Source: Oscillospiraceae bacterium
GTDB lineage: Bacteria; Bacillota; Clostridia; Oscillospirales; Ruminococcaceae
Assembly (NCBI GenBank): GCA_017399765.1
Contig: JAFQBH010000029.1
Span: 1 to 58,586 of the forward strand
Length of the DNA stretch: 58,586 nt
Direction: 5' to 3'
Positions within the stretch are counted from its first letter, which is position 1. Each line of letters starts with the position of its first letter. The notes beneath the pieces are model-generated. The model was not told the origin of the DNA. It saw only the letters and a list, made by a program, of their open reading frames with translations, and did not search any database. Shown here piece after piece: positions 25,163 to 48,565 of this stretch. Position numbers and translations under genes: made by a program.

Positions 25163-26524
25163 ATGGATTTAAACAAATTCAAACCGAAGCAGGAAAAAGA
25201 GGGCAAGCGGCTTGAAACTTATATGATCGCGGCGGATGACCCCGTCGGCAGAAGCCAGCTTAGACCGATTTTCAAAAGAAAACGAAGCGGCGAAGTTCTT
25301 ACAAGGGAACAGGTTTCCGCAATCAAAAAAGGCCGCAAACTCCTTCGCAAAGAAATGAAGGAGCAGGGTCTTAAGCGCAGGATAGACTTTGAAGTAACGG
25401 CAACAAACATGGGCCTTTTCTTCGACAGAAACCGTCTTTTCTGGCCGTTTTTCCTTTGGCTTATCCGTGATAACACTGTTCTTAAGGTTCTTGCAACAAC
25501 CGCAGTGCTTACTACAGCGGTTACGGTAAGCGTTCCGGTTATACAATACCTTACGGAATACATAACCGAATATCTTGAAAAAATCATTCAGGAAATTGTT
25601 ACCGAAACGGTAACTGAATATGAGGAAAAGGAAGTTGACCGTTTTACCATAAGTCTTTCGGACGAGCTTTTCAATTCCGGTTTTACTTTAAGTGAAAACA
25701 TAACCTTTGAAAACGCTTCCACCCAGCTTGTTGCAACCCCTTCGGAAGGCGTTCCCTGCATTTCCATAAGAGATATTCCGACCGACGTTAATGACAACGA
25801 AGGAAAATACCCCGACCACTCTTTCCTTGCGTACACCTTTTACTGCCGTTACGAAAGCACGACCGAAACCCCGGTTGATTACAAATGGTCGCTTAACATA
25901 ACCCAGGAAAGCGAAGTTCCCATGGAAAACCCGGAAACCGGCGAAACTTTTTCACGCTATACTTCCGACGCGATTTGGGTAATGGTTTTCGAAGACAATA
26001 AAATGATGCTCTATGCCAAACCCGGTGCAGATGGTCAGATCGAAGCCATTCCGGAGCAGGGCATTACCGATATGGGTTACAACGAACCCCCGATGTATGA
26101 ATTCGCCAAAGACCCGCAGGGTCAATATGAAGTGGTTCAGCACGCTGAAACGACTCCAAGCCAATATTTCGACCTTTACAGAATCAAGCCGCAGAACTTT
26201 GCTTCTGAAACCGTTGTTGCGGAAGGGCTTATGATGGGTGTTACACCTTTTGACATGAACGCTTTTGACCCGACCGCGCCTTATGACCCGGAAAACCCCA
26301 ACGGAATACATAAATACACCGTTGTAATCTGGCTTGAAGGCGACGACCCGGAATGCACCAACGAACTTATCGGTTCCAAAATCGGCATGAACTTTACCAT
26401 AAAGCTTCTTGACGAAATGACCGAGGAGGAAGAAGGTTCCGGCGGCGAAACCCCCGAGCAGGGCGGCGAGCAGGGCGGCGAAACCCCCGAACAGGGCGGC
26501 GAAACCCCCGGCGAAGGAGCGTAA
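25163..26524 (+). CDS. Membrane-anchored surface protein with WLEG-type beta domain
   Basis: The 453-residue protein has a basic cytoplasmic N-terminus (1-106), one membrane helix (about 107-130), a short Glu/Thr helix, then a long extracellular beta-rich part. Near 390-398 it has WLEGDDPEC, a motif also found close to the C-termini of the proteins at 29.3 and 35.1 kb. The end is a low-complexity GGE/TPEQ tail. It has no SipW-type cleavage motif, so it probably stays in the membrane. This suggests an anchor or assembly platform for the secreted relatives. A dispersed repeat follows the gene. Confidence 0.7.
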   Translation: MDLNKFKPKQEKEGKRLETYMIAADDPVGRSQLRPIFKRKRSGEVLTREQVSAIKKGRKLLRKEMKEQGLKRRIDFEVTATNMGLFFDRNRLFWPFFLWLIRDNTVLKVLATTAVLTTAVTVSVPVIQYLTEYITEYLEKIIQEIVTETVTEYEEKEVDRFTISLSDELFNSGFTLSENITFENASTQLVATPSEGVPCISIRDIPTDVNDNEGKYPDHSFLAYTFYCRYESTTETPVDYKWSLNITQESEVPMENPETGETFSRYTSDAIWVMVFEDNKMMLYAKPGADGQIEAIPEQGITDMGYNEPPMYEFAKDPQGQYEVVQHAETTPSQYFDLYRIKPQNFASETVVAEGLMMGVTPFDMNAFDPTAPYDPENPNGIHKYTVVIWLEGDDPECTNELIGSKIGMNFTIKLLDEMTEEEEGSGGETPEQGGEQGGETPEQGGETPGEGA

Positions 26525-26536
26525 CGCCGAAAACCC

Positions 26537-26661
26537 TGTCATTGCGAGCCTTTGAAAAAGGCGTGGCAATCCGTAATGCAAAGAGAGAAACGGATTCTTC
26601 ACTTCGCTCAGAATGACAGAGGAGGACGGATTCTTCGTCACAAAGCTCCTCAAAATGACTT
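26537..26661. repeat. Dispersed MITE-like repeat
   Basis: TGTCATTGCGAG (26537-26548) is partly complementary to CTCAGAATGACA (26607-26618), and a related CTCCTCAAAATGAC follows. GTGGCAATCC and GGATTCTTC are typical of a repeat family found in many bacterial genomes. It has no coding role. An open frame through it extends the next gene artificially. Confidence 0.65.
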
Positions 26662-26776
26662 AAATTTGTTTATGCTTTCCACTTTTGCTTTAAGTCGACA
26701 AAAGCAAAGGAATGGATCACATAGAGTTCCGGCGGGAACAGAAAAAACGCGAAATATTTTGAAAGGAATGAGATGT

Positions 26777-29086
26777 ATGATCACAAAATCTCAAGCAAAG
26801 CGTAAGCAGGACATTAAGACCAAACTTATGGCTGCTATCGCAATGCTGCTCGTGTCCTCCATCATGATGGTATCTTCCACCTATGCATGGTTCACACTCT
26901 CAACCGCACCTGAGGTAACCGGCATCCAGACTGCAGTTGGTGCCAACGGTAACCTCGAAATGGCGCTTGTACCCACAAATGGTGATATTGAAAACGGTAT
27001 CAAATCCGAGGCTGGTGACAGTCTGAAATCGATTCCGGAAAAGAACATCACCTGGGGTAACCTTGTTGACCTTGGCTACTCTGTGGAAAATGCCAACTAT
27101 TACGGTCTGGATAGAATTACCCTTTATCCTTCCAGACTGAATGCTGCAACAGAAGATGCAAACAAAAACCCGCTCACTTTGGCAACTACACTTCTCCAGA
27201 CTCCTGCTTATGGAGCAGACGGACGTGTAAGCGAAATGAAAAACGATACTGTTACAAGTACTTTTGTTTCCGGTGCATTCCCGCAGAACAATGAGTTTGG
27301 TGTTCGTGCAGTTGGTGTTGCATCCGGAATGACTGACCGTCAGCTCGCATACCGCAATGCTATTTCTTCTGCATCCACATCTGTCAGCCAGGCAAAGAGC
27401 CTTGCATCTGACTCTCTTAAAAACAATGGTGATTCGCTTGCAAACATCGCTGTCAAAAAGGCAATGAATCCCGGAGCAACTTATAACCAGGAAGATGTTG
27501 CTTCTCTTCTTGCAATTGTAGATGACCTTCTTGGTACCAAAGATGAAAACGGAGCAACAATTAAAGTCGGTGTTCTTCAGCATATCGAAAATGCATATCG
27601 CAGTTACATTGTTGCCTATGCCGCATCCACTGCAGGTGTTACTGCAGGAATTGATGATAATGAATTCAAGGTTTTTCAGGGTGTTGTAAATAGTGCCGCA
27701 ACATTGAACGATGCTGTTAATGATTTGAAAAATACATACAGTGTTGATCTTCCTGATACTATTTCAGGCTATATCACTGCTCTCAACACAAGCAAACAAA
27801 ATGTTGAAGAAGCAAAATCTGCTCTGAAAGCTCTTACCGGAGATGCTATAGCATGGAGTGATTTGAACGCTGCTCTTACAAAACTTGCAAATATTGATGC
27901 AATGACTATCAATAATATTCCTGCAAGCGAAGCAAAAGATAAGATGAGCGAAATCGTAAACTCTGTTGCAGGCAGCGGTATTACTGTTGCAATGTCCAGC
28001 GGCGGCGGTGTTTATGCAGACGTTGCAGACCATTGCGGTAACTACACCGCATCTATTGTTATAGATAGACTTGCAGCAGGTGGACTTGAACTGACAAATG
28101 TTAATGCACGTATGGAAACCAAAGCCACTGCAGCAGGAGCTCCCTATCTTACTGCTGTAAATACTACTATAGCAGGTTATGGTGCACCGAGCGGAGAAGG
28201 CGGACAGGTTATGCCTATTTCTGATATGTACGGCTATATCATCGACCTTGCATTCAGAACCAACGCAGCGGGTTCAAACCTTCTTCTCCAGACCGAAGCT
28301 ACCGGACGTATTTATGAAAACGGAAGCGAAGAAACCATGGGTCATGGTTCTACTATGACTTTCCAGTCCACCACCAATGACTTTACCATTACACAGGTAA
28401 AAGAACTGATGAAAGCTATCCGTCTTGTATTCTTTACTCCAGATGGCACAAACAGCAATGTTCTTGCAACTGCAAAACTTGATATGACCAATGATGTTAA
28501 AGAAGTAGGCGGCAACACCGTAACTGCGAACCTTTATATTTACGAACTTATTGCAGACGGTGCACAGACTTATGTACCTGCGGATACCGGTGCAACTCAT
28601 GTTGCTGATGATAGCGCAGATGATGGTTTCCGTCTTCCTATTGAGGGTAAAAATGAAACTCCTACCCACGGCAAAGATGCTGAAGGAAATTATGTTTTAG
28701 CAACAGATGAAATTCCGGCTGTTTATGTACAGGATGCTACTGCGGATAATGGTTTCCGTAAGGCTCTTGAAGGCGAAACCGCAACCCACAAAGTATCCAA
28801 TGCTACCGGAAGCAGCGAGAGATTGCTTGAAGATGACGAAGCGGTTATTACTGCTCTTGGACAGAACATTCCTCAGCAGGTTTCTGTTCTTGTATATCTT
28901 GATGGTGAAAAAATCACCAATGCAGACGTTGCGGCAACCGCTTCTACTTCTGTAACCGGTTCTCTCAACCTTCAGTTCTCCTCTTCTGCAAACCTTGTTC
29001 CTATGAACTATACCGATCTTATGGCACAGAGTGGAAGCACCGATACTCCTGCACAGGGCGGCGAAGGTCAGGAAACCAATCCTTGA
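26777..29086 (+). CDS. Large secreted protein with SipW-type signal peptide
   Basis: The 769-residue protein has a basic start, one hydrophobic helix and the SipW-type junction SSTYAWFTLS (YAW at 36-38). The beta-rich N-terminal part (EVTGIQTAVGANGNLE, ITWGNLVDL, FGVRAVG) is shared with the 1517-residue protein at 41.3 kb. A mainly helical Ala/Asn/Ser-rich segment (about 190-420) is inserted before the conserved MYGYIIDLAFRTNAAGS region, and VLVYLDGEKI lies near the end. Two imperfect TADNGF-type repeats lie at about 610-680. The ATG at 26777 has AAAGGA nine bases before it. Likely a main structural subunit of a surface filament or coat (inferred). Confidence 0.75.
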   Translation: MITKSQAKRKQDIKTKLMAAIAMLLVSSIMMVSSTYAWFTLSTAPEVTGIQTAVGANGNLEMALVPTNGDIENGIKSEAGDSLKSIPEKNITWGNLVDLGYSVENANYYGLDRITLYPSRLNAATEDANKNPLTLATTLLQTPAYGADGRVSEMKNDTVTSTFVSGAFPQNNEFGVRAVGVASGMTDRQLAYRNAISSASTSVSQAKSLASDSLKNNGDSLANIAVKKAMNPGATYNQEDVASLLAIVDDLLGTKDENGATIKVGVLQHIENAYRSYIVAYAASTAGVTAGIDDNEFKVFQGVVNSAATLNDAVNDLKNTYSVDLPDTISGYITALNTSKQNVEEAKSALKALTGDAIAWSDLNAALTKLANIDAMTINNIPASEAKDKMSEIVNSVAGSGITVAMSSGGGVYADVADHCGNYTASIVIDRLAAGGLELTNVNARMETKATAAGAPYLTAVNTTIAGYGAPSGEGGQVMPISDMYGYIIDLAFRTNAAGSNLLLQTEATGRIYENGSEETMGHGSTMTFQSTTNDFTITQVKELMKAIRLVFFTPDGTNSNVLATAKLDMTNDVKEVGGNTVTANLYIYELIADGAQTYVPADTGATHVADDSADDGFRLPIEGKNETPTHGKDAEGNYVLATDEIPAVYVQDATADNGFRKALEGETATHKVSNATGSSERLLEDDEAVITALGQNIPQQVSVLVYLDGEKITNADVAATASTSVTGSLNLQFSSSANLVPMNYTDLMAQSGSTDTPAQGGEGQETNP

Positions 29087-29132
29087 TTTTAACCCGGATT
29101 CTGTCTTTTTCTAAGACGAACATAAAAAATAT

Positions 29133-29157
29133 TCCTGCCCCGGTTTCCGGGGCAGGA
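29133..29157. other. Intercistronic hairpin without T-run
   Basis: A perfect 11-bp GC stem TCCTGCCCCGG/CCGGGGCAGGA closes on TTT. On plus no T-run follows, so it is more likely an mRNA end-protecting or attenuating element after the 769-residue subunit gene than a full terminator. Confidence 0.6.
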
Positions 29158-29180
29158 GTCAAAGAAAAACGCCCGGTTGG

Positions 29181-29226
29181 GGGTTTTTCCGCCCTTTTTT
29201 GAATGGAAAAAACGGCGGAAAAGCCC
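29181..29226 (+). other. Second long hairpin in the same gap
   Basis: GGGTTTTTCCGCC (29181-29193) pairs with GGCGGAAAAGCCC (29214-29226), with TTTTTT/AAAAAA pairing inside the loop. An AT-rich stretch with possible promoter boxes follows before the next gene. Confidence 0.5.
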
Positions 29227-29298
29227 GCAACCATTACGCATTTTATTTTATATATAAAATTATAAAATAAAAAATTTATAAAGAAAGGAAGGCACCGA

Positions 29299-30405
29299 TT
29301 GAACAAACAGAAAATCAAAGACAAAAAAAGGGCACGGCGAACAATAATCTATCTTTATATGCTGTTCATTCTTTTTTCGCTGTTTGTCGGTGTTTCCTAT
29401 ACCTGGTTCACCCTTTCAAGAAGCCCAAGGGTAAGTAACATGAACGTTTACATTAACAGCAACCCGGGAATGGAACTTTCAAAAGACATGGAAGAATGGG
29501 GGCTTCAGATAGATTTCTGGGACATTGTAAATTACACCGACCCGCTTGATGAGGAAAAGGAAAAACCGATTTTGCGCCCGGTGACCTGGTCCGAAGAAAA
29601 CCAATGTTTTGTTGCCGCCGCTTATGGCGTTGACGGAAGGCTTAAACCTTTCCGTGACTGGCATTCCCTTACCGACGAAAGAAATGCCAACAAACAGAAC
29701 ATCGAAAACTATTACATAAAAGCCACTTTTTATGCCCGTTCCGGTCAGCCGGCGGATATTTCACTTTCGCCCGCGATGGAGGTAAACGAAGGCGTTGCCG
29801 GCGCGGGAACTTACGTCCGGGGCGTTCCGGTCTGGAACCCGGGCCATTATGTAATCGTAAAAGATGAAAACGGTTATGACAAAAAGGTTCTTGTCGGTTA
29901 CGGTCACGACAACGGCGGTCAGGGCGCGGAAAAGGCCATTCGTTTCGGTTTCAAAACAACGGTGCTTGTTCCGAACGAAGAAGGGGAATTTGTTCCTGAC
30001 CCGGAACGCGAACCGGAATTTGTGATTTTTGAACCCAACAGCGACACCCACGTTTACGCTGAAGACGGTTATATTTCCACCGCAAGCATGGACGGAACGG
30101 AAGACCTTATCGACCCGGAAAAAATTATTTTGCAAAGCACAAGTTTCTGGGACGAGGCGGCGCCAATTGAGCACGGGGTGGTCATCCACACCCTTGGCGA
30201 TTTCATTGACCGGGAAGGCGAACCCGCGGATCCGCCGAAAATTTTTTCCGTAAAAACAAACGAAATCATAAAAATTGAACTTTACGTCTGGCTTGAAGGG
30301 CAGGATATCGACTGTACCAACCAGAGCAGCGACGCGAAGATCGAAGCAAACATCCAGTTCTACGGCGAAAGCGAAGAACAAACGGGACTTGTAAAAATCG
30401 AGTAA
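29299..30405 (+). CDS. Secreted SipW-type protein with WLEG motif
   Basis: The 368-residue protein starts at TTG 29299 after AAAGGAAGG. After a basic stretch and one helix the cleavage region reads GVSYTWFTLS (YTW at 34-36). The rest is beta-rich and acidic. Near the C-terminus WLEGQDIDC (331-339) and TNQSSDAKIEANIQF match the 25.2- and 35.1-kb proteins. A signal peptidase gene follows directly. It is probably a minor subunit, cap or anchor of the surface structure. That assignment is inferred. Confidence 0.72.
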   Translation: MNKQKIKDKKRARRTIIYLYMLFILFSLFVGVSYTWFTLSRSPRVSNMNVYINSNPGMELSKDMEEWGLQIDFWDIVNYTDPLDEEKEKPILRPVTWSEENQCFVAAAYGVDGRLKPFRDWHSLTDERNANKQNIENYYIKATFYARSGQPADISLSPAMEVNEGVAGAGTYVRGVPVWNPGHYVIVKDENGYDKKVLVGYGHDNGGQGAEKAIRFGFKTTVLVPNEEGEFVPDPEREPEFVIFEPNSDTHVYAEDGYISTASMDGTEDLIDPEKIILQSTSFWDEAAPIEHGVVIHTLGDFIDREGEPADPPKIFSVKTNEIIKIELYVWLEGQDIDCTNQSSDAKIEANIQFYGESEEQTGLVKIE

Positions 30406-31461: not shown

Positions 31462-33024
31462 ATGGATAATTTTTATAATTATTTTACAGATGATATCGGC
31501 CGGGTGTTCCAGGCGTTTGTTGAAGTTATAAGCGCGGTTTTCAATTTTCTGAATTATCTGTTCAACTTCCCGATGCGAATGAACATCATAAAAGAGCACA
31601 GCGCAACTTTCAGCACCACCGATTGGGTAATGCTGCTTGTTGCAAACATAATGATTGTTGTCATCTGCGCTTTGATCATATATTTTGTGGGAAAACTTAT
31701 TCGGAAAATTTTCTTCGGCGGAATTTCCCGCAAAGAATATGAAAAAATGGCTGTTCAGGTTCGATCCCTTCAAAGGGAACTTATGCGTTCCAATTATGAG
31801 AAAGACAAGATACTTTCCATGAAAATGGGCGATTATGAAGTTCCGCCCGAAGAGGAAGAGAAAAAAGAAGAGGAAAACGGCGAAGAAATTGTTCCCGTTT
31901 CGAACAGAAACACCATCGAATCTCCTTGTGTCGATCCTTCCGACAGCCGTTTCTTCCGTCTTACCTGCGTCGATAATTTTTACAAAACCGAATATGTTGA
32001 ACCGGAATATGATAACAATATAACCCTTGAACAGCTTTGTGAAAGGTTCAGGAATTTTGCCGCTTCCCAGCTTAAACTGTATTACGACATCGATATGATG
32101 CGCTTCTTTATCGCATCAATGGGAACCTCAAGAATAATCATTCTTCAGGGTATTTCCGGTACAGGTAAAACCTCTTTGCCCTATGCCTTCGGAAAATTTG
32201 TTCAGAAAGATACCACCGTTGTTTCGGTACAGCCTTCCTGGCGTGAAAGAACCGAACTTTACGGTTACTTCAACGAATTTACAAAGCGTTATGCCGAAAC
32301 GGAATTTTTGCAGGCGATTTATGAATGTAACTATTTCCGCGATCCCCATATAGTAATTCTGGACGAAATGAACATCGCCCGTGTTGAGTATTATTTTGCG
32401 GAAATGCTTTCAATTCTTGAAATGCCTCTTCAGGAAGAATGGAAGGTCGATATCGTAACCGCGGTTTGGGATAATGACCCTTGTCTTATCGACGGAGGAA
32501 AAGTTCAGATTACCAACAACGTCTGGATAGTCGGTACCATCAACAACGACGACTCCACTTTCGCCGTTGCGGATAAAGTTTACGACCGTGCTATTCCGAT
32601 AGACCTTGACAGCAGAGCGGATCCCTTTGAATGTGAACTTACGGACCCTGTTTACATTTCCACAGACCGCCTTAATGAACTTTTTGACGAAGCAAAGGAA
32701 AACTATCCGGTTTCTCAGGAAGTTATCGACAAGCTTGAGCAGGTAAACACCTATCTTATCAAAAACTTCCGTCTTGCTTTCGGTAACCGAATTATGAAAC
32801 AGATAAACGACTTTGTCCCCTGTTTCATTGCCTGCGGCGGAACGGAAATACAGGCAATCGACTTTATTGTTGCGAAAAAAGTTCTCCGTAAGTTTGAATC
32901 TCTCAGCCTTGGTTTTATGAAAGACGAACTTACAAAATTCAGCAGCTATCTTGATAAAGTTTTCGGTAAAAACACAATGGTTATCTGCAAAGATTACATA
33001 GAGCAACTTAAGAAGAACAACTGA
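31462..33024 (+). CDS. Membrane-tethered McrB-like AAA+ ATPase
   Basis: The 520-residue protein has an N-terminal region with a membrane helix at about 55-79. A basic/coiled linker and an acidic stretch (125-147) follow. The AAA+ domain (about 215-520) has Walker A GISGTGKTS near 230-238, SVQPSWRERTELYGYF, Walker B IVILDEMN (297-304) with the McrB-type extension ARVEYYFAEML, a sensor loop GTINNDDS and KVYDRA. McrB proteins are GTPases of restriction systems, but here there is a membrane anchor and no DNA-binding domain. GTG 31453 is part of the ribosome site, so ATG 31462 is chosen. It probably powers a step in export or assembly. Confidence 0.85.
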   Translation: MDNFYNYFTDDIGRVFQAFVEVISAVFNFLNYLFNFPMRMNIIKEHSATFSTTDWVMLLVANIMIVVICALIIYFVGKLIRKIFFGGISRKEYEKMAVQVRSLQRELMRSNYEKDKILSMKMGDYEVPPEEEEKKEEENGEEIVPVSNRNTIESPCVDPSDSRFFRLTCVDNFYKTEYVEPEYDNNITLEQLCERFRNFAASQLKLYYDIDMMRFFIASMGTSRIIILQGISGTGKTSLPYAFGKFVQKDTTVVSVQPSWRERTELYGYFNEFTKRYAETEFLQAIYECNYFRDPHIVILDEMNIARVEYYFAEMLSILEMPLQEEWKVDIVTAVWDNDPCLIDGGKVQITNNVWIVGTINNDDSTFAVADKVYDRAIPIDLDSRADPFECELTDPVYISTDRLNELFDEAKENYPVSQEVIDKLEQVNTYLIKNFRLAFGNRIMKQINDFVPCFIACGGTEIQAIDFIVAKKVLRKFESLSLGFMKDELTKFSSYLDKVFGKNTMVICKDYIEQLKKNN

Positions 33025-36390: not shown

Positions 36391-36396
36391 TGTTTT

Positions 36397-37164
36397 ATGA
36401 ATAATATAATAAAAGAAACGGGGGACGCCCGTCTTCAAAGAAAGATAAGCGCCCTGGTAACGGTTCTTCTTGTTCTGGCGGTTACCCTTTGCCTTTATGC
36501 AACCATTCAGGTTTTGAGCAAAGGTTATGCAAACATCGGAGGATTTATGATGTTCCGAGTTGTAACCGGAAGTATGGAACCCACAATTCCGGTGGGGTCT
36601 TTGCTTTTGACAAAAGAAACCGAAATAGAAGAAATCAAAGTGGGCGATATTGTGTGTTTCCGCACACAGGTATCGGAAATTTGGGGAAAGATAGTTACCC
36701 ACCGTGTGGTGGATATTATAAAGCCGGAAACAGGGGGGCTTCTTTTGGAAACAAAAGGGGACGCAAACCTTGTTGCCGACGGATATTATGTGGACGAAAC
36801 GAATTTTTTGGGCAAGGTTATCTGGCATACGGGAGATGGCAATATGTTTGCAGGCATTTTATCATTTTTTACAAGCGAACTTGGTTTTTTAGGTTTTATT
36901 GCTCTTCCGAGCCTTTTGCTTGCCGGGTTAATACTTAAAAATACGGTGTCCAATATTCAGCAGGATTTAAAACTTGCGCTTGAATTGGAAAGACGCGAAA
37001 AAGCTCTTTCTGTTAAAGAAGAAGATCCTCTTTGCGGAATGACAAAAGAGGAATATGACGAAATGTACGAAAGAATCCGAAAGGAACTTATGGAGGAGAT
37101 GATGAAGTTTGAAGAAATTCAAATTGAGCAAAATTCCCTTTCCGAGCGACCTGAAGATAATTAA
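36397..37164 (+). CDS. sipW: SipW-type signal peptidase
   Basis: The 255-residue S26B enzyme has a membrane helix at about 18-38, catalytic Ser59 in VTGSMEPT, His102 in IVTHRVVD and the acidic block ETKGDANLVAD (118-128). A second helix follows (about 157-180) and a charged cytoplasmic tail ends it. There is only a weak ribosome site, six bases after the preceding stop, so translation is probably coupled. The tail overlaps the next gene by 56 bases. It is the second Ser/His peptidase in the cluster and may serve the proteins downstream. Confidence 0.9.
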   Translation: MNNIIKETGDARLQRKISALVTVLLVLAVTLCLYATIQVLSKGYANIGGFMMFRVVTGSMEPTIPVGSLLLTKETEIEEIKVGDIVCFRTQVSEIWGKIVTHRVVDIIKPETGGLLLETKGDANLVADGYYVDETNFLGKVIWHTGDGNMFAGILSFFTSELGFLGFIALPSLLLAGLILKNTVSNIQQDLKLALELERREKALSVKEEDPLCGMTKEEYDEMYERIRKELMEEMMKFEEIQIEQNSLSERPEDN

Positions 37165-39132: not shown

Positions 39133-39759
39133 ATGAACAGACAAAAGAATAGTTCGCTGTGGCATTTGCTGTGTCTGGCTTTGCTTCTTTGTATGGCCTT
39201 TGCGGTAATTGCCACCGGAACGGCCTATGCGCGTTACCGCACAGACGCCAAAGCGGAATTGCTTTTTGAAATAAGAAAACCTGCGGAACTTGTTATCGGA
39301 ACCGTTATAAACGTAGATGGAAACGAAGAGTTTAATCCGGAAGGAATTCAGGAATGGAAGATCGAAGGAAACACCGCAACCCTTGAAATTGCGGTTTCCA
39401 ACGGAACCAATTCGGTCCAGGCAAAAGATCAGAAAGTAAGATTGCGCCTTATCGGTGGTATAGGACTTACTGTGGGCGAAGAAACCGCTGAAATTACGCT
39501 TGAAACGGCGGAAAATGGTTCGGAAAAAAGTTTCAAAGCAAAAGCGGAAAAGATAACCGAAAACTCGGTTCTTCATTTTGAGCACGGCGACGGTTGGATA
39601 TTCACATTCTTTGAAGAAAATGGCAAGGAATTTTGCTGGATTTTTGAAGGAGGAAAACCGTCTTATGTAAAAATGAGCATAAAGGTTGACGTTTCGGAAA
39701 TCGATTTGGAAAACGGCCTTATTATTGAGCCGCAGTTTATTACGGAAATAATTGATTGA
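39133..39759 (+). CDS. Small secreted protein with ARY-type SipW signal
   Basis: The 208-residue protein has a signal of about 31 residues ending GTAYARY (YARY at 32-35), the second common SipW-type junction seen in camelysin/TasA relatives of gut Firmicutes. The rest is a single beta-rich domain with many Glu and Thr residues, including EWKIEGNTATLEIAVSNGT, which fits a TasA-like sandwich. AAAGGAG precedes the ATG. It could be a filament subunit. Size and position favour a minor or accessory one. Confidence 0.72.
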   Translation: MNRQKNSSLWHLLCLALLLCMAFAVIATGTAYARYRTDAKAELLFEIRKPAELVIGTVINVDGNEEFNPEGIQEWKIEGNTATLEIAVSNGTNSVQAKDQKVRLRLIGGIGLTVGEETAEITLETAENGSEKSFKAKAEKITENSVLHFEHGDGWIFTFFEENGKEFCWIFEGGKPSYVKMSIKVDVSEIDLENGLIIEPQFITEIID

Positions 39760-39786: not shown

Positions 39787-41286
39787 ATGAAAGATAAAAA
39801 AATCAGAATTTGCTGTGTTCTTCTTTCGTTCATAATGCTTGCCGGAACTTTGAGCATCTCTGTCGGCGAAGTTTGCGCAAGATATGAAAACAGGGTTTCA
39901 TGCAGAACGATTTTGGAGTCGGAACGGGAAACGCAAAACGGCAAAAGCTTTTTTACGGAAACTTCCGAAGCAAAAATCATTGTTCTTGCCGGTGAACTTG
40001 TAACAGAACATGCAACAGAAAAAGAACTGGCTTTTGACCTTGAAGCTTTTGAAACGGCCAAAAGCGGCAAGATTTCCTGGAACACCGCTTATGAGCACGG
40101 GAAATTTGTAAATATAGAAATGAGCATCGGGAACGAAAGACTTGAGCACGAAGAAGAAATTTCGGTTCCGGAAAACTCCAAAAAAACTGTTACCATGACT
40201 GTTTCGGCAACAAGCGAAGCTTTGTCGCAGCCTCATGAAGCGATGGATATCGACATCAACATAAGCTGGGGCGAGCTCGGCGGAATTTTTCGCGTAAGCA
40301 TTCCGGCGGTTGCTGAAGTTTCTGAAGAAAACAAAAATTCTTCAGAAAGCGTGAACACACCGCCACCTTCTGAAAACGAAACTTCTGAGGAATCAAATTC
40401 CAGCGTTCAGCTTGAAGCAGCAGGCACGACGCAGGAAGCAGTTGACGTTCCGGAAGAAACGACTGATGAAACCGAAGAGACGGTTACGGAAAACAGCGTG
40501 TCCTGCATTGCGGCTTTTGACCCAAAACAGTATCTTCCGGTTAAGATAACTTTGGCAAGCGGCGTTACGGACGTTGTTTTCAGCCTTTCGGACGAAAACG
40601 GCGATGTTCCGCAAAATTTTCCCGCCGGCACAAAGTTCAGCATAGACAACGGAAAAAGTTTTTATATGCTCTATTCTGAAGATACCGTAAAACTGGAATC
40701 TTCGGAAATAGAGAATTCCCTGCTTTTCGATTTCAGCGATACGGAACTCCTGAATTCCGAAAACATTTCCATGATAATGCAGCCTTGGGCAGGTTCGGTT
40801 TCGCAGGAAGCTTTTAAGATAACCTCGCTTACAAACGCGGCGAAATCTTTTGAAACAAGAGAAGCGACAAGCGGGGAAACCCTTGAACTTTCCGGAAACG
40901 GCGAAACAGAAACGATTTCCGGAAACGGTTTCAAGACTTTCGTGCTCAACGGCGGAAACGCGGTTGAACTGGTTTTTCCGAAAGAATGGATGGACGCAAA
41001 ACTTACCGCATCTGTTCAGATTCTTGAAATTGCGGAAAACGGTTCTCTTGTTTTCAATAATACAGAAAACGTTTTTAAAGAATATATAAAGGACGAAACG
41101 GCGCAGACACACAAACTTGTGCTCAAAACAAACGGAAGTTTTTTCGACGCCGGAACGTACCGTGTTTATATTATCTGGGAATATGAAGGAATCCCCTTTT
41201 TCAAAAAGGGAGTAAACTTTTTCGTAAATTACTCAACCCCAACCAGCAGTACGCTGAAGAGTCAGGAGGTGCCTTATGGTAACTGA
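39787..41286 (+). CDS. Secreted protein with ARY-type SipW signal
   Basis: The 499-residue protein has a signal ending GEVCARYENRV (CARY at 30-33). A beta-rich domain resembling the preceding protein follows (about 40-180). Then comes a Ser/Glu/Thr-rich linker (about 185-245), and a second beta-rich region. The linker suggests an extended stalk. The 3' end overlaps the next gene by 11 bases and carries its AGGAGG site. No known family is assigned. Confidence 0.7.
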   Translation: MKDKKIRICCVLLSFIMLAGTLSISVGEVCARYENRVSCRTILESERETQNGKSFFTETSEAKIIVLAGELVTEHATEKELAFDLEAFETAKSGKISWNTAYEHGKFVNIEMSIGNERLEHEEEISVPENSKKTVTMTVSATSEALSQPHEAMDIDINISWGELGGIFRVSIPAVAEVSEENKNSSESVNTPPPSENETSEESNSSVQLEAAGTTQEAVDVPEETTDETEETVTENSVSCIAAFDPKQYLPVKITLASGVTDVVFSLSDENGDVPQNFPAGTKFSIDNGKSFYMLYSEDTVKLESSEIENSLLFDFSDTELLNSENISMIMQPWAGSVSQEAFKITSLTNAAKSFETREATSGETLELSGNGETETISGNGFKTFVLNGGNAVELVFPKEWMDAKLTASVQILEIAENGSLVFNNTENVFKEYIKDETAQTHKLVLKTNGSFFDAGTYRVYIIWEYEGIPFFKKGVNFFVNYSTPTSSTLKSQEVPYGN

Positions 41287-44200
41287 AACTCAAAAACGAA
41301 TAGAAGCATACCGGGAACTTCTTCCGGGACTTAGAGAAAAGGTGACGGCGGTGGCATTTTTGCTTGCGCTTTCTGTAATCATGCTCACTTCCGCTTCCTA
41401 TGCTTGGCTCACAATTTCCCGAGCCCCGGAAGTTACCGCCGTGAGCACGAACATTGCAGCAAATGGAAGCCTTGAAATTGCTTTGGCAACCGGCGACGGA
41501 AAAACCGCACCCGGAGAATCACAAGTTGGGGATTCAAGCGCTGCGGAAGGGCAAAACATAAAAGACGCAAATATCACTTGGGGTAACCTTATTAACCTTA
41601 ACGACCCCACCTATGGTTTGCAGAATCTTGTTTTAAGACCGGCACAGCTTAACACAACTTCGCTTCTTGAAAGCCCGCTTTACGGTGCGGAATATAAAGA
41701 AGACGGACGAGTTGAAAAACTCACAAGTGACTTTGGTTATGCAATGTGGGTTCCTCCTGAAGGCAACAAACCCGGATATTTTGGTATTGGCGATGAGTAT
41801 GGTGTCCGCGCAATTTCTTCAAAAAAAATTGAAGCTGTCGGTGCGGCGGTTACATATCTGGAGCTTTTGGGAGAAGCTAAATCAAAAAACCTTGCTGCGC
41901 AAACGGCATATACGAATATTGTTGCAGGTGGTAACAACAACCCATACATGAAGTCGCTGGCGAATATTATGGGTAAATATATGACAGACAACATGGACAA
42001 TGACGGAACGTATAACAATCCGGAAGTTAATGTAGCAGACATAAATAATCTTATAAGTTTGTACGAAGAATTTCTGGAAGTTATTGATATAGAGGTCGAA
42101 GCCATTGCGGATCTGGCAAATGTGCAATTGTTTTTATTACATGGTGAAGGCGGTTATACTCCATACACAAAGGAAACGATTTATGAAGCAAAAACATCCG
42201 CAAATCTTGCAAAAAATGATATAACGATTTCTAATCTTGAGGGACTTCTCAATGATAAAACGAAGATAGAAAATGGTTTGGTAACACTGAAAGGACTTTC
42301 TTCTTCAGGAGAAAAGATATATTGGGATACTCATAATATGAATAATGTCATCAACTCTCTTGTCAATGTTGGCGAATGTGAAATGCATGATGGTGTTAAA
42401 ATTAAAAATATCGGTGCAACCGCGGCAATGAACTATTTAGGTGATGGTAACAGCGCTATTATAACGAATGGTGTTCTTTATAATTTTGAACTTCGGACCG
42501 GTGCATATATTTCTGTTAAAGATTTGGTTATAACTGTATCTGCAAAGCGTAGTATTATAAACATGAAAGATAAAGAAGTCAAGACGAATGTTTATACTTC
42601 TGCAAGCAAAGCGGGATATAATTTATTCGACAACGACCTTGCCGTTACTGAAGGAATGAATGACGGTAGCTATAAAGGCGGCAAAGAAATCGTTGAGGAT
42701 ACCTATGGCCTGGCTGTTGACCTTTGGGTTCGTACAAACTCTGCGGGAAGCTATCTTACTCTTGAGGGTAACGTTCTTACAAGTTCCGAAGACGTTGAAG
42801 CAACAGGCAAAGACGCAAACGGAAATATAGTTGATATTTATACTGTTACGATTTCCGAAACAGATGAAGAAACGGGTGGAACGGTTTCCTATTCAATGGA
42901 TGTCTATAAATCACATGAGACTATAACCAATCCGGACGATGGGCAGCAAGTTGAAAAGGAATATTGGCATTCTGCAGAAACACATACGATTATTACTGAC
43001 GAAGAGCTTGGAGGGAAAACACCTACAAGAAAGATCGAAACGGTAGTTACCGTTATCGGTTATGAAGGTGAAAACCGTATCTGGGGTGAAAATGAATTGA
43101 TTTCAACCGATGCGACGACCCAGGGCGGCGGCAGCTGTTATGTTTACTATGCGGACAGCCCCGAGGATATGGAAAGATCCCTTAAGCTTTTGGAATCTTT
43201 CAAAGTTGTTTTTGTCGGGGGTAATGGACAAAAACTTGCAACGGCCGGAATGGATACAGAAAGATATTTCGCTGAAAGCGGTCGAGTAACGGTTCCGCTT
43301 GTGCTGGAGGCAAATGACAGTATAGACCTTGGTGAGGATTATACAGGAAATACTGTCTATGGTATTACCGCTCTTGAACAGAACGAACCTACAAGAATTA
43401 CCGCAATTGTTTATCTTGATGGTACAAAGCTCGGGAACAGCGAAGTTCTTTCCGCTTCGGATATTCAGGGACAGCTCAATATCCAGTTCGGAAGCAGCCA
43501 GTCTTTGGAACCTATTGAAAACGAAGACCTTGCAGGAAAAACTCTTACCGTAAGCGCAAGCGTAGATAAAATTACATTTGATTATGATACGGAAACAGGA
43601 CCGATGACTTCAACATTTACGGTAAATGTTGACGGATATGAGCCGGATGCGGTAAAAGCATATCTTATCAGAAGAGTAAGTGCCACCCAAGGCTCGCGTG
43701 AAGCAGAGTTGACTTTTGATGGAAGCGGAAACACGTGGACTTGTGAATATGAATTCACCACTCCTGGAGTTTATATTTTACGCACCGTAAACCTTGATGG
43801 TACGGACCACGATCTTGCTCCGGATAATTTGCCGACAGTAACAGTAAAAGGTTTTGCAATACGGAGCTTTAATTGCGACCAGGCAACGGGTAACTATGTT
43901 AACATTATGACCGCAGAAAACTCCGCAACGCTTGATTTGAACCTTCAGTTTTCAACGGAAGACCCAAGCAAGATGCCGACTGCTGTCCAGGCAAGATTCC
44001 TCAGTGAAAACGGCGCAGTCAACGCGGATTTCGTTTATAACCAGACTAACCAAACATGGAAAGCAAAAGCAACTTTCCACAGTTCCGGTGAATATACACT
44101 TCAATATATAGTTCTCGATGGTGAAATCAAAGAACTTGATTCGACCATGTGGCAGACAGCAAGCATCACCCTTGGTATGAAAGTTGCTGTTTATTCTTCA

Positions 44201-45829
44201 AGCCCGAAACAGTTCAAATATGTTCCGAGTGAAATGGCGGATAATGAGAAACTTCTTGATATGGAAGTTACGATCATGGATAACGCTGGAAATGAAATTA
44301 CCGGTCTTTCCGGAGCAAAACTTTTCTATACAATGAAAGGTTCCACCAACAAAATGGATACGGACCTTATCTGGAACGGAAGATATTATGCAGGTGAACT
44401 TGCAACAACGGGACCCGGTATCTGGCAGTTCAACAGGGTTGAAGTAAAAATTGGAGAAAAGACCAACAATCTTACTGTTGCAACGGAATCTCCGACATTT
44501 ACCATTCTTTCTCCGGAACCGCCGGAATATGTTAGACACAACACAGTTTCTTATCAGTATAAACCTAACAACGATGCAACGATGAACGTTTTAATCAGCA
44601 ACTCTTCTGCAGCAACCGTTCAGGCATACATTGTTAAAAATGGTGCGGCCGAAGGAACTTGGGTTAATGGTGTTATCGGTCAAGAAGATACTACTGGCGG
44701 AAAACCTGCGAACTATTGGAATTTTAAAGTTCCTACTGATGCAAACGGTTATCAGGACGGCCGTTGGAATCTTACAACGCTTCGCCTTTGGAACGTATTT
44801 GCTGCGGATGGAACAGCTTACACCGAAGAAACGCCGCTTGAAATTGATGTTTCCAATGAAAACAACAAGACAAAGGTTGTAAGTAGGGTTTTTGTAAGCT
44901 TTGCTGAAGATAAGAGTTACAATTTCGGTAGGGAAGGCGGAAAAACAGACGGAAAAGTAACCGGCGCGTTTATGGATAGCTACACAGTTTCCGGAATCAG
45001 CGTCAATATTCAGGACTTTGAGAATCAGAAGATTGATGGTATCAGCGATGTAAAACTTAGTTTCACTTATGAAAATAACTCCCAAAAATACGGCGGATAC
45101 ACAGGTGTAACAAATGCGAACGCAGACTTTAATATAACATTGACAAATAGCGATGACTATGGAATTAATTTTGTCCAGAGCGGAAGCCATACATTGCAGT
45201 ATGCCGGAAGCTGGACAACGACTTTCAGCTTCAAAGTCGGAAGTCAGACTATGACTTACAGCGGAGACAGTCTTCCCGCAAATGCACCTGTTTATACCGT
45301 AAGTTCCGTAACGCCGAGCGTAACTGTTTCGTCGATAAGTCCGTCAGGAACGATTAAAACAACAATATCGTACTCAGGTACGGAACCGAATGGTAATTAT
45401 ACATATGGCAATGAGGTAACAAACGGTGCAATTTCCGGTAAGCCATACGAATGGAATGCTTATGCTTCTGCAAAGGATCAAGGTACTGGTGATGCAGGTT
45501 TTGAATTGCCGACCATTACTTTTGCTGCGTCCGGATTAAATTCTGTTGACATACTTGAATTTACGATTCCGGCGGGTAGCAGCAATGTCCTAAATGTTTC
45601 TATAACAGGAAATGGTAATAATACAAAAACATTGGGAAGCCTAAGTGTATATAAGGAAAAGTCAGGTTGCGTGACATATACTGTTTATCAGTATAACGGA
45701 CATGGAACCATTAAGATTTCTGAAGTTGCGGTAAAACATAATAACGAAACCTATACGATATACTTGGAAAACCCGATTACCGTTTACAACCCATCTTCTA
45801 TACCCAATAGCCCTATATCTAATAGTTAA
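41276..45829 (+). CDS. 1517-residue SipW-type surface protein
   Basis: After a basic N-terminus and one helix the junction reads SASYAWLTIS (YAW at 42-44). The following part (EVTAVSTNIAANGSLE, ITWGNLINL, YGVRAIS, VDLWVRTNSAGS, AIVYLDGTKL) is the same domain as in the 769-residue protein at 26.8 kb, again split by a largely helical insertion (about 185-390). From about 770 to the end there are several beta-sandwich units of some 100-150 residues with few cysteines, of Ig-like appearance. There is no visible C-terminal anchor. It is likely a long fibre or adhesin attached through the shared N-terminal domain. Confidence 0.78.
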   Translation: MVTETQKRIEAYRELLPGLREKVTAVAFLLALSVIMLTSASYAWLTISRAPEVTAVSTNIAANGSLEIALATGDGKTAPGESQVGDSSAAEGQNIKDANITWGNLINLNDPTYGLQNLVLRPAQLNTTSLLESPLYGAEYKEDGRVEKLTSDFGYAMWVPPEGNKPGYFGIGDEYGVRAISSKKIEAVGAAVTYLELLGEAKSKNLAAQTAYTNIVAGGNNNPYMKSLANIMGKYMTDNMDNDGTYNNPEVNVADINNLISLYEEFLEVIDIEVEAIADLANVQLFLLHGEGGYTPYTKETIYEAKTSANLAKNDITISNLEGLLNDKTKIENGLVTLKGLSSSGEKIYWDTHNMNNVINSLVNVGECEMHDGVKIKNIGATAAMNYLGDGNSAIITNGVLYNFELRTGAYISVKDLVITVSAKRSIINMKDKEVKTNVYTSASKAGYNLFDNDLAVTEGMNDGSYKGGKEIVEDTYGLAVDLWVRTNSAGSYLTLEGNVLTSSEDVEATGKDANGNIVDIYTVTISETDEETGGTVSYSMDVYKSHETITNPDDGQQVEKEYWHSAETHTIITDEELGGKTPTRKIETVVTVIGYEGENRIWGENELISTDATTQGGGSCYVYYADSPEDMERSLKLLESFKVVFVGGNGQKLATAGMDTERYFAESGRVTVPLVLEANDSIDLGEDYTGNTVYGITALEQNEPTRITAIVYLDGTKLGNSEVLSASDIQGQLNIQFGSSQSLEPIENEDLAGKTLTVSASVDKITFDYDTETGPMTSTFTVNVDGYEPDAVKAYLIRRVSATQGSREAELTFDGSGNTWTCEYEFTTPGVYILRTVNLDGTDHDLAPDNLPTVTVKGFAIRSFNCDQATGNYVNIMTAENSATLDLNLQFSTEDPSKMPTAVQARFLSENGAVNADFVYNQTNQTWKAKATFHSSGEYTLQYIVLDGEIKELDSTMWQTASITLGMKVAVYSSSPKQFKYVPSEMADNEKLLDMEVTIMDNAGNEITGLSGAKLFYTMKGSTNKMDTDLIWNGRYYAGELATTGPGIWQFNRVEVKIGEKTNNLTVATESPTFTILSPEPPEYVRHNTVSYQYKPNNDATMNVLISNSSAATVQAYIVKNGAAEGTWVNGVIGQEDTTGGKPANYWNFKVPTDANGYQDGRWNLTTLRLWNVFAADGTAYTEETPLEIDVSNENNKTKVVSRVFVSFAEDKSYNFGREGGKTDGKVTGAFMDSYTVSGISVNIQDFENQKIDGISDVKLSFTYENNSQKYGGYTGVTNANADFNITLTNSDDYGINFVQSGSHTLQYAGSWTTTFSFKVGSQTMTYSGDSLPANAPVYTVSSVTPSVTVSSISPSGTIKTTISYSGTEPNGNYTYGNEVTNGAISGKPYEWNAYASAKDQGTGDAGFELPTITFAASGLNSVDILEFTIPAGSSNVLNVSITGNGNNTKTLGSLSVYKEKSGCVTYTVYQYNGHGTIKISEVAVKHNNETYTIYLENPITVYNPSSIPNSPISNS

Positions 45830-45832
45830 GAA

Positions 45833-45864
45833 CTTCGCTCCTCCCTTTTCCGGGAGGAGCGAAG
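45833..45864. other. Intercistronic hairpin after the 1517-residue protein gene
   Basis: A perfect 13-bp stem CTTCGCTCCTCCC/GGGAGGAGCGAAG is followed by AAAAAAT, not a T-run. Probably stabilizes the upstream mRNA or attenuates. Confidence 0.6.
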
Positions 45865-45901
45865 AAAAAATAATGACCAGATATTTTTACTGGAGGAGAA
45901 A

Positions 45902-46630
45902 ATGATAAACGAAGCGATAATTGCTATTGTTGAAGCCGGATTATCAAGTACATTTTACGATATTTTCTTTGCCCTCGGTTTTGTTTCGGTTCTTTGTGGT
46001 TTGGTCTGGTTCGGAAAGAAACTTGATTTTCCAATGAAGAACGTGGCTATTCTTGTTTGCATTGTATATCCGCTTGTTGTTTTGTGGATGTTCATCATGT
46101 TCTGGATGGAATCCGGATTTAAGGAATGGGGCGGGAACAACATTGTAAGGATTTTTGTATATGTGCCGCTTATAGCACTTCCGGTTGCAAAATTTCTGAA
46201 GATAGAAGGGGACAGGGCGCTAAGTCTTCTTTCCTTTGCGCCTCTTCTTGTTCATGGAGTAAGCCATTTCGGATGTGTTTTTGCGGGTTGTTGCCACGGA
46301 TATCAATGGATTTACGGCATATATAATTCGTTGTTCTGTGACTATAGATTCCCAATACAGCCGATAGAAGCTCTTACTGCCGTTGCGATAGTTTTTTATT
46401 TGTTTTACAGAGCAAAAAAGAGGAACTACGTTCCGGACGGCCTTGAATATCCGGTAATGCTTGTTCTTTTCGGTTCAACAAGATTTTTGTTTGAATTTTT
46501 AAGGGACAACGAAAAAATGTTCTGGGGTATATCGAACCTTGCGATACATGCACTGTTCATGTTTGTAGTAGGAATTATATGGATCATAGTTGCAAAGAAA
46601 AAATCGGAAACAAAATTAAAAATTTTTTGA
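45902..46630 (+). CDS. Lgt-like membrane protein with altered active site
   Basis: The 242-residue polytopic membrane protein resembles prolipoprotein diacylglyceryl transferase. It has about seven helices, the central GCVFAGCCHG block, PIQPIEAL and the C-terminal RFLFEFLRDNE. The Arg that opens the central motif in relatives (R-x-GC...GCC) appears as His (SHFGC). Lgt adds lipid to the lipobox Cys of exported proteins, but none of the SipW-type proteins nearby has a lipobox. It may lipidate another target or have a changed function. The ATG follows TGGAGGAG. Confidence 0.78.
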   Translation: MINEAIIAIVEAGLSSTFYDIFFALGFVSVLCGLVWFGKKLDFPMKNVAILVCIVYPLVVLWMFIMFWMESGFKEWGGNNIVRIFVYVPLIALPVAKFLKIEGDRALSLLSFAPLLVHGVSHFGCVFAGCCHGYQWIYGIYNSLFCDYRFPIQPIEALTAVAIVFYLFYRAKKRNYVPDGLEYPVMLVLFGSTRFLFEFLRDNEKMFWGISNLAIHALFMFVVGIIWIIVAKKKSETKLKIF

Positions 46631-46651
46631 TTGTGAAAGGGGTGTGCCGCT

Positions 46652-48565
46652 TTGTATGACGTAATAAATAAACATTTTGCCCGGCTTCTGGCGGTGCTCC
46701 TTGCCTTTGTGCTTGCTTTTTCCGGCGCGGTTTCCGCTTTTGCTGACGAAACAAGCGAAGCGGAAATTTCTTCCGAAACAGAAAGCGCCGCTGCGGACGA
46801 GAGCACTGTTTCGGAAGAAACCGCTTCTGAGGTTGTTCCCGAAACAAGAACCGCAAGCGGTTCCTGCGGACCAAACCTTTCCTGGAGTTTTTCTGCCGGG
46901 ACGCTTACAATTTCCGGTTCAGGAGCAATGGATGATTTTCCGGAAAGCACTTTTGCTCCCTGGTATGGGTTCAGAGATGAAATTGTAAGGCTTAACCTTC
47001 CGAGCGGGCTTACTTCCGTCGGCGACCTTGCGTTTTATGAATGTAAAAATCTTACCGCGGTAACTATCCCTTCTTCTGTAACGAACATCGGAAGATATTC
47101 TTTCACCTATTGTTCCGGAATGAAGATATTAAGCCTTGGAAACGGGGTTAAAACCATTGAAGAAGCCGCTTTTTCCGATTGTTATGCCCTTACATCTTTA
47201 AGTTTGCCGAACGGTCTTCAGACCATAGGTCAGGAAGCTTTTTACCGCTGTGAATCCATAACGACGGTAACGATTCCGGCAAGCGTAACAAAAATCGGAA
47301 TGCTTGCTTTCGGTTACTGCAAAAATCTTGTAAGCGCGACGGTTAATGCAAACGTTTCCGAAATTCCGGAATTTATGTTCTATAAATGTCAGAAACTTTC
47401 TTCCATAAAAATTCCGGACAGCGTTGAAAACATCGGCGACAACTCTTTCCGCGGCTGCGACAACCTTGGTTCGGTTTATTATAACGGCGAAAATATGTCT
47501 GTCGGAAAAATCCACGATGCCCTTGACGACGAGGTTGCCGGTTTTGAAGGCACCGGTTCTGTAAGCGAAGGCGAAATTTCCGGCTCGGTAAGTTCCGGAA
47601 CCACTTATGAAAAAGAGGACGGTTCTTTCACCCAGGAAAATACGACCGTTACAGAAACCGAAAAAACAACCGTTTCAACAACGATAACGACGGATTATAC
47701 CGTTGTAATGCCGGAAGAAATTACGGGAGAAACCCTTCCGGAAGTTTCGGAAGGAAATTCGAGCGTTGATATAAGCATTTCCGTAAAAGATGATCAGGGC
47801 TGGACGGAAGTTATTGAAGAAACCGAAAAAGTTCTTGACAAGCATGGTCACAACAATGACGGAAGTGAAAAACACGTCAACATTTCACTTTATCTTGATG
47901 AAAGCGGAACAATAGACAGCGGTTTTATTGAAGCCATCGCAGGAAAAGATGTTACCGTAACCGTTATGGCTTCCGACGGTTCTGTTTGGAAGATCGACGG
48001 AAAAAACGTTGATACTGCGGAACTTTCCGGTGAATATAACCTTGCTTATGTTATAGAAGCTGTCCCCCCCGAAGTTTGCGCAGATTTTGGAGTGAGCACC
48101 GCATTCGTGCTCAAATTCCTCGCTCCTGCTCAAATCAATGCGGAGGTGCTCATTTACATAGGAACGCCTTTCGGCAGACAGAACGCAACTCTTTTCCAGA
48201 AAAACAAAGAACTTGACCGTCTGCAAAGCGTTGTTGTGGACAACGAAGGCTATGCTCATTTTTACCTTGGTTCCGTAAGTGAAAAAACAGAATATTATAT
48301 CGCAATGAACCTTCCGGATGCGGCCGGGGAAGCTCTTATTCCGGAAAACATGCTTGCGGAATACGGCAACCCGGAATATATCGAACCGATTAAATATGAG
48401 ATAACGGGAAGAACCTCTTCCTGGGGAATGAATCTTGGCCAGGTAATGGGAATTCTCGGCGGGGTTATGGCAGGAGTTGTAATTCTGGTTGGCGGAATTA
48501 TGTTTATCTGGAACAGGCAGCGCCTTAAAAACGGTTATGTACCGAAATTTGACGACGAAGAATAA
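46652..48565 (+). CDS. LRR (BspA-type) surface protein with membrane anchor
   Basis: The 637-residue protein starts at TTG 46652 after GAAAGGGG. A classical signal peptide (ending VSAFA near 31) is followed by a Glu/Ser-rich stretch. BspA-type leucine-rich repeats (about 85-290) follow, with units of the form LxxVTIPSSVTxIGxxAFxxC. A Thr-rich beta region comes next. A C-terminal membrane helix (about 598-622) with a short charged tail anchors it. It has no SipW-type motif, so it is exported by the ordinary route. Likely an adhesin or binding protein at the end of the cluster. Confidence 0.82.
   Translation: MYDVINKHFARLLAVLLAFVLAFSGAVSAFADETSEAEISSETESAAADESTVSEETASEVVPETRTASGSCGPNLSWSFSAGTLTISGSGAMDDFPESTFAPWYGFRDEIVRLNLPSGLTSVGDLAFYECKNLTAVTIPSSVTNIGRYSFTYCSGMKILSLGNGVKTIEEAAFSDCYALTSLSLPNGLQTIGQEAFYRCESITTVTIPASVTKIGMLAFGYCKNLVSATVNANVSEIPEFMFYKCQKLSSIKIPDSVENIGDNSFRGCDNLGSVYYNGENMSVGKIHDALDDEVAGFEGTGSVSEGEISGSVSSGTTYEKEDGSFTQENTTVTETEKTTVSTTITTDYTVVMPEEITGETLPEVSEGNSSVDISISVKDDQGWTEVIEETEKVLDKHGHNNDGSEKHVNISLYLDESGTIDSGFIEAIAGKDVTVTVMASDGSVWKIDGKNVDTAELSGEYNLAYVIEAVPPEVCADFGVSTAFVLKFLAPAQINAEVLIYIGTPFGRQNATLFQKNKELDRLQSVVVDNEGYAHFYLGSVSEKTEYYIAMNLPDAAGEALIPENMLAEYGNPEYIEPIKYEITGRTSSWGMNLGQVMGILGGVMAGVVILVGGIMFIWNRQRLKNGYVPKFDDEE

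Follow-up and report, generated by a model that had tools for sequence, protein, structure and literature searches.

A probable CoCoPALM-type operon linking a membrane-anchored McrBC-type NTPase pair with SipW-family peptidases and candidate surface-fibre subunits in an Oscillospiraceae bacterium

We analysed a gene cluster at positions 25163-48565 of a 58,586-nucleotide (nt) stretch of DNA from an Oscillospiraceae bacterium (the window; contig C29, JAFQBH010000029.1, of a 1.83-Mb draft genome, here G000). The cluster holds seven proteins with SipW-type junctions (the substrates S1 to S7), two Ser/His signal peptidases, a membrane-anchored relative of the substrates (the anchor), an AAA+ nucleoside triphosphatase (NTPase) with a transmembrane segment (TM), and a helical partner of this NTPase. 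A first-pass annotation of the window had listed this inventory on one strand, and we found it close to the coordinates given there, with all likely genes on the plus strand (Table 1). The gene order is anchor, S1, S2, SipW peptidase, AAA+ NTPase, helical partner, S3, second peptidase, S4 to S7, an Lgt-like gene and a BspA-type leucine-rich repeat (LRR) gene. The cluster had also been called nearly gap-free. In related loci gaps are small or genes overlap; in the window two intergenic gaps exceed 200 nt, one of 252 nt 5' of the likely S1 start codon (ATG 26777) and a hairpin-bearing one of 212 nt that separates S1 from S2.

Table 1. Features of the cluster and its flanks, by position in the window (aa, amino acids; ORF, open reading frame)
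Feature	Position	Strand	Basis and remarks
FIVAR-domain protein, TM near C-terminus, possible first gene of the unit	22749..23621	+	PF07554 2e-7, over cut-off
HD_5 and EAL-like protein	23680..25158	+	HD_5 above cut-off (52.2 bits); EAL under its cut-off of 31.3 (29.1 bits)
Anchor: membrane-held substrate relative, cytoplasmic N-tail, no cleavage junction	25163..26524	+	profile kin of S2 and S3
S1, junction YAWF	26777..29086	+	listed ORF starts at TTG 26552; likely ATG 26777 read from sequence
212-nt gap between S1 and S2, strong inverted repeats (26-nt, 12-nt and 11-nt arms)	29087..29298	+	sequence
S2, junction YTWF	29299..30405	+	profile, AlphaFold2
SipW-family Ser/His signal peptidase, charged C-terminal tail of ~113 aa	30474..31424	+	TIGR02228, NF046067, alignment
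TM-anchored McrB-type AAA+ NTPase, signature NNDD	31462..33024	+	profile, PADLOC, tree
McrC homologue: DUF2357 domain, then long E/R/K-rich helical tail	33048..35027	+	PF09823 31.7 bits, cut-off 23.3
S3, junction YAWM	35065..36390	+	profile
Second SipW-family signal peptidase	36397..37164	+	TIGR02228 89.7 bits
S4, junction SAWY; C-terminal part has repeats and by eye resembles a beta-helix	37109..39106	+	related proteins in 40/81 loci
S5, junction YARY	39133..39759	+	related proteins in 14/81 loci
S6, junction CARY	39787..41286	+	related proteins in 10/81 loci
S7, junction YAWL, 1517 aa, homologous to S1 in its N-terminal part	41276..45829	+	profile
Lgt-like membrane protein, accessory	45902..46630	+	PF01790 33 bits, cut-off 24.9; TIGR00544 35.2 bits, below cut-off
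BspA-type LRR protein, C-terminal TM, accessory	46652..48565	+	PF13306 1e-56
Terminator-like hairpin 3' of the LRR gene	48572..48600	+	pattern match only

The AAA+ protein and its helical partner are a McrB/McrC-type pair. At E <= 0.01 the McrB profile matched three PDB sequences, all of them McrB, and the best PADLOC match of the protein was PDC-M26A (1e-41), a candidate defence model. For comparison we used the best 80 of at least 558 McrB relatives from a scan of named genomes, a set biased to close relatives (with the window, the 81 loci). To offset this bias an evenly drawn order sample of 245 genomes was added, in which 25 genomes match McrB at E <= 0.001, 24 of them strongly, and from which 25 regions were taken around the McrB matches of 24 genomes. 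A phylum-wide sample of 398 genomes supplied distant McrB regions, 20 in number (19 from the top of its list, with G268 skipped, and G539). The NxD motif of this NTPase family reads NNDD in 79 of the 80 related McrB ORFs, and a TM lies N-terminal to the NTPase domain in 20 of the 23 McrB ORFs called across 26 regions; the exceptions are the distant L186 and two fragments at contig edges (L182, L185). Pfam gave no match to a DNA-binding domain in McrB. In a tree of a random 24 of the 80 loci, the window, and the rows of the order and distant sets whose Walker A motif could be read, the 41 SipW-linked rows fall on one side of a branch with support 98/99, and all 41 carry GT[AI]NNDDS; the TM-anchored group as a whole is supported by 100/99, several outgroup rows sit on long branches, and "restriction-like" is our own label in this tree. 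By sequence, the sampled SipW-linked McrBs are one clade.

The McrC identity of the partner emerged when the genome was searched in six frames and when residues 1-331 were scanned separately, both of which brought up DUF2357; a full-length Pfam scan had returned nothing, probably an effect of composition. DUF2357 exceeded the Pfam cut-off in all six McrC homologues tested (the window's and five relatives). Profile-profile alignment (hhalign) with nine other McrCs covered the DUF2357 core only, window residues 74-179, and found no alignment to their nuclease part, where the DAK motif is invariant in all nine, the proteins in which it was checked. An AlphaFold2 model of McrC residues 1-345 (predicted local distance difference test, pLDDT, 79.4; predicted template modelling score, pTM, 0.59) shows a single strand beyond residue 209, whereas a PD-(D/E)xK sheet would need more. 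Neither the profile alignment nor the model thus detected a PD-(D/E)xK nuclease on the McrC homologue. Across 73 McrC rows the tail has a median length of 361 aa and a median E/R/K/Q content of 49%. The McrC profile matched no PDB sequence at E <= 1, and the protein had no match in PADLOC.

S1, S2, S3, S7 and the anchor belong to one superfamily by profile, which S4, S5 and S6 did not join. The junctions exceed what chance would give: among the substrate-family proteins of the 81 loci that have a TM, 205 of 211 show the pattern [ASTG]W where the N-terminal TM ends, compared with 37 of 225 other TM proteins and a single one of the 59 anchor relatives with a TM. Junctions of the W type, not ARY, are what this test covers, and six further anchors, the window's included, received no TM under the simple rule used. 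A second motif, W.EG.D, occurs in 63/65 anchors, 114/219 substrates and 1/439 other proteins. In S2 the tryptophan of the junction, Trp 36, is near-invariant (>=90%) across 61 aligned members, and the AlphaFold2 model (mean pLDDT 92.1, pTM 0.86) shows a helix at residues 3-39, with Trp 36 near its end, followed by a beta-rich domain. Aligned by profile with 12 ordinary SipW substrates, the family shares with them just a 33-residue stretch of signal and junction (probability 86%, E 4.8e-6). The junction is thus of SipW type, and the mature proteins look like a different family.

Both peptidases exceed the TIGR02228 cut-off of 51.85 bits (91.3 and 89.7 bits) and score below the cut-off of 190 with the SipW model NF046067 (100.9 and 71.3 bits). 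All 117 aligned relatives keep the Ser and His of the active site. Of 66 McrB-adjacent peptidases, some of whose called ORFs are fragments or mis-started, 47 have a charged C-terminal tail of at least 60 aa, against 1 of 24 peptidases from regions without McrBC. These long tails are the most specific hint of a contact between the peptidases and the cytoplasmic NTPase.

The set recurs next to McrB. By six-frame counting, applied to all components (ORF calling overlooked genes, for example the peptidases in 3 of 20 SipW regions), McrC and a SipW-family peptidase are each present in 78 of the 80 loci and the substrate family is present in 79. Cultured carriers include Anaerosporobacter faecicola (L050) and Ruminococcus flavefaciens (L088). 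The recurrence that the first-pass annotation had proposed as a check, beside relatives of the AAA+ protein and its partner, was thus found in 78-79 of 80 loci, and homologues lacking SipW-type substrates were not the rule among them. Five loci are incomplete: three end next to McrB (L052, L060, L074), one is a 5.4-kb contig (L090), and in one, L073, the peptidase is missing although the stretch continues well to either side. Of 561 component genes, 559 lie on the McrB strand, and median gaps are -1 nt from mcrC to peptidase, 25 nt from mcrC to substrate, 37 nt from mcrB to mcrC, 37 nt from substrate to peptidase and 51 nt from peptidase to mcrB. Farther away, 56 of the 398 genomes of the phylum-wide sample match McrB at E <= 0.001, strongly in the window's genome only (next best E 6.7e-35). 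The 20 distant regions, searched in six frames, contain McrB in 19 (none was found in the G539 region) and no SipW-profile or substrate match at E <= 0.001; weak mcrC-profile matches appeared in 9/20 in ORF mode and in 2/20 in six frames.

The substrate family tracks McrB rather than SipW in general. Among 148 genomes of the window's family, McrB is strong in 8 (13 at E <= 0.001, including these 8), and the TIGR02228 peptidase passes its cut-off in 46 (112 at E <= 0.001). The peptidase is over cut-off in 8/8 genomes with a strong McrB versus 38/140 others (Fisher 5.5e-5), and a strong substrate match (E < 1e-10) occurs in 8/8 versus 1/140 (Fisher 1.9e-12); these p values are optimistic, as the tests disregard genome kinship and the thresholds were set after the lists had been seen. 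At E <= 0.001 the substrate family is matched in 18/148 genomes, most of the weaker matches covering just the signal end of the model, and such matches were kept out of the strong counts. The sole exception, G005, has substrates and a peptidase without a strong TM-McrB; its contig stops 467 bases past the peptidase match, and no McrB start was seen in the translated remainder. From the 46 peptidase-positive genomes we hand-picked 20 SipW regions, 18 from genomes without a strong McrB plus the second loci of G000 and G105. All 20 contain the peptidase and none mcrB or mcrC, and substrate matches number two at E <= 0.001 and zero at E <= 1e-5. The window's own genome has both kinds of SipW locus, because its second one lacks McrBC. 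That locus (L141, G000:C33:36500-56499) encodes two peptidases and proteins with FAKY, YARY and MAKY junctions.

The ATPase, which had seemed unexplained, belongs to a McrBC type whose link with signal peptidases is already in print. Under the name CoCoPALM, the eLife 2024 CoCoNuT paper (PMC11090510) briefly lists NxD McrB systems with an FtsB-like TM/coiled-coil segment and a link to signal peptidases, in a passage that defers their description to a later publication. Open-access searches gave no fuller account than this article and its preprint, the other papers listed being judged by title; among these are one on Myxococcus pili and a functional-metagenomics methods paper that names both SipW and McrB. 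The best assignment of the cluster is to CoCoPALM, as a candidate system. Shared features are an NxD McrB whose NTPase domain is preceded by a TM and a charged helix, a McrC homologue with a long helical tail, and signal-peptidase family neighbours; the FtsB homology given in the paper was not seen in the six McrB N-termini searched against Pfam. Substrates, an anchor, a junction and tails on the peptidases go undescribed in the CoCoPALM passages. The same searches did not bring up in print the substrate family, the uncleaved anchor, the charged tails of the peptidases or the distinctness of these loci from ordinary SipW loci, which appear to be new here.

Known SipW systems offer a second comparison. 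As far as the consulted descriptions of Bacillus tapA-sipW-tasA and Clostridium perfringens sipW-bsaA go, the window resembles them in its SipW-family peptidase, in a TM signal with a related junction and in a subunit predicted to be beta-rich, but adds a McrBC pair, an uncleaved anchor, a second peptidase and larger substrates. McrBC type IV restriction systems, in turn, share the McrB AAA+ domain and DUF2357; in contrast to them, the window has a TM anchor on McrB, a SipW context and no nuclease found on McrC.

We consider it fairly probable that the cluster is a CoCoPALM-type operon for a SipW-processed surface fibre under cytoplasmic control by a membrane-held McrBC-type NTPase with no nuclease found. 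Since no DNA-cutting domain was found, this membrane-bound McrBC relative probably does envelope work. From gene content and sequence we infer that the cluster's products assemble a surface structure and that the function of the pair is NTP-driven control of its processing or assembly. The Sec route exports subunits as TM-anchored precursors, and the substrates would be exported in this way. The Ser/His peptidases would then cleave just before the conserved Trp 36, a site suggested by the junction together with the presence of the peptidases. TasA fibres form by donor-strand assembly, according to the parts consulted of their descriptions (PMC9674648, PMC10151520), and by analogy the freed N-terminal strand could pair with the next subunit during a presumed polymerisation. 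The uncleaved relative, which lacks a junction, might stay in the membrane as the base of the fibre. A putative McrB ring with McrC, close to the charged tail of the peptidase and the cytoplasmic tail of the anchor and presumably touching them, may couple hydrolysis of a supposed NTP to the timing of cleavage, release or polymerisation, and the upstream HD/EAL-like gene might exert control over the process. A bolder form of this idea, which we put forward only tentatively and with some doubt, is that a restriction-type McrBC engine was recruited to the cell envelope as the power source of a Gram-positive surface fibre, where from the inner face it would time SipW cleavage and feed donor strands onto the anchor by means of NTP.

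Several observations weigh against this picture. Neither donor-strand assembly nor, independently, the McrC identity has fold support, because neither model found a PDB match at E <= 0.001: the best match of S2 was 7ueg (E 0.061, probability 0.06), and solved McrCs were absent among the 50 matches listed for McrC. Pili are among the weak S2 matches (7ueg, 6erj, 7pnb; probability <=0.16), which we did not use as evidence, and the substrate profile had one match to PDB sequences, at E 0.25. Heptad signal exceeded that of shuffled sequences in 0/5 charged stretches of the window, so "coiled coil" is here to be read as "charged helix", and the coiled coil attributed earlier to the partner is unproven. 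Six McrB N-termini gave no FtsB match against Pfam, a search that did not repeat the method of the CoCoNuT paper, and a single FtsL match at E 0.043, below cut-off. The N-termini of the seven window substrates matched TIGR04088 or TIGR04090 in 0/7 cases at E <= 10; of three control substrates, two match TIGR04090 (both below cut-off) and one TIGR04088 (above cut-off). This failure fits mature substrates of a different family, because the alignment with ordinary substrates stops at the signal and junction. Peptidases of the same loci that do not adjoin McrB have tails of at least 60 aa too, in 21 of 54 cases. In the 21.7-kb stretch of L073, McrB, McrC and substrates come without a peptidase; at 8229-15646 of this locus, GWF- and AWY-type proteins flank McrB and McrC. 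In the 25 order-sample regions linkage is looser: 19 have the peptidase, 22 have McrC and 15 have the substrate family. One of these regions ends at a contig edge (L185) and one has a distant McrB (L186); four more (L169, L174, L175, L182) have peptidase and McrC and no match to the substrate hidden Markov model, and two of them, L174 and L175, encode proteins of 1.8-2.0 thousand amino acids (kaa) with a VYAWL junction. Four regions of one family (f20; L180, L181, L183, L184) have a TM-McrB with neither SipW nor substrate match, possibly another membrane use of McrBC. Their McrBs are short (421-446 aa), three of the four regions have an mcrC-profile match, and large TM proteins lie near McrB in L180, L181 and L184.

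That McrB group without SipW, a sister of the SipW-linked one, together with the 212-nt inverted-repeat gap between S1 and S2, could suggest that the cluster is two independent modules, an ordinary SipW fibre locus beside an unrelated McrBC pair. We regard this as very improbable, given that peptidase and McrC each accompany McrB in 78/80 loci, that the SipW-linked McrBs group by sequence as one clade, that mcrC and peptidase genes overlap, and that the 20 SipW regions outside McrB loci contain no strong substrate match. The pair might instead regulate or clear precursors, a quality control that removes signal remnants or peptidase, without being required for fibre building. The accounts of TasA and BsaA fibres, as far as consulted, include no McrBC-type pair, no physical hint found is more specific than the long tails of the peptidases, and L073 has no peptidase nearby, all of which would suit such a role. 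The association of the substrate family with McrB, and not with SipW generally, suggests a substrate-specific need, however, and we judge a clearance role rather unlikely.

A further possibility is an anti-phage system sited in the envelope, in which the McrBC pair would sense infection through the surface structure and set off a response, and the fibre would act as receptor, decoy or trigger. Besides the kinship with McrBC and the PADLOC match of McrB to a candidate defence model, a patchy distribution in the genus speaks for it, with DUF2357 in 6 of 15 genomes including the window's own, several of these genomes being incomplete. A defence unit would not usually include seven secreted substrates and two peptidases, however, no nuclease was detected in McrC, and in a PADLOC scan of McrB and McrC the latter had no match; overall we find a defence role improbable.

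Should the McrBC-type NTPase indeed drive or gate the fibre, a family known for cutting DNA would have taken on a role in the envelope, and an undescribed, actively controlled surface structure would exist in many Clostridia of gut and rumen. The consulted passages on TasA, TapA and BsaA fibres mention no NTPase. Other surface fibres are built by sortase, type IV pilus, chaperone-usher and curli pathways, and if the bolder form of the idea is right, the cluster would stand beside these as a separate kind of dedicated fibre-building machine. The name CoCoPALM becomes testable, as its substrates, anchor, peptidases and NTPase pair are now listed.

The unit may begin upstream at 22749, because the FIVAR and HD_5/EAL-like genes have relatives in related loci (11 and 20 phmmer matches, respectively, in the 81 loci, window included); a promoter-like pattern match lies at 22382. 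The HD_5/EAL-like gene ends 4 nt upstream of the anchor gene, and its product, whose active sites look degenerate by their motifs, is a possible regulator of the cluster linked to cyclic di-GMP. The inverted repeats at 29133-29232, between S1 and S2, are a possible attenuator or RNA-processing site; a riboswitch search with Rfam at gathering thresholds returned transfer RNA only. At the other end, the Lgt-like and LRR genes are not core, because relatives occur in just 3 and 5 of the 81 loci (window included), and the Lgt-like enzyme thus drops out of the machine in which it had been placed. Nor was the proposal of self-contained export supported, as no Sec or Tat component was found among the cluster proteins scanned.

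Two minor observations concern the surroundings. An interspersed repeat, 80% identical over ~90 bp, lies between anchor and S1 (26530-26620) and within the genome's second SipW locus (G000:C33:46980-47070), with two shorter partial copies elsewhere. Past the cluster, at 48761-55195, a 2144-aa ORF has a signal-like start, a hydrophobic C-terminus and a weak Tox-REase-2 match below cut-off.

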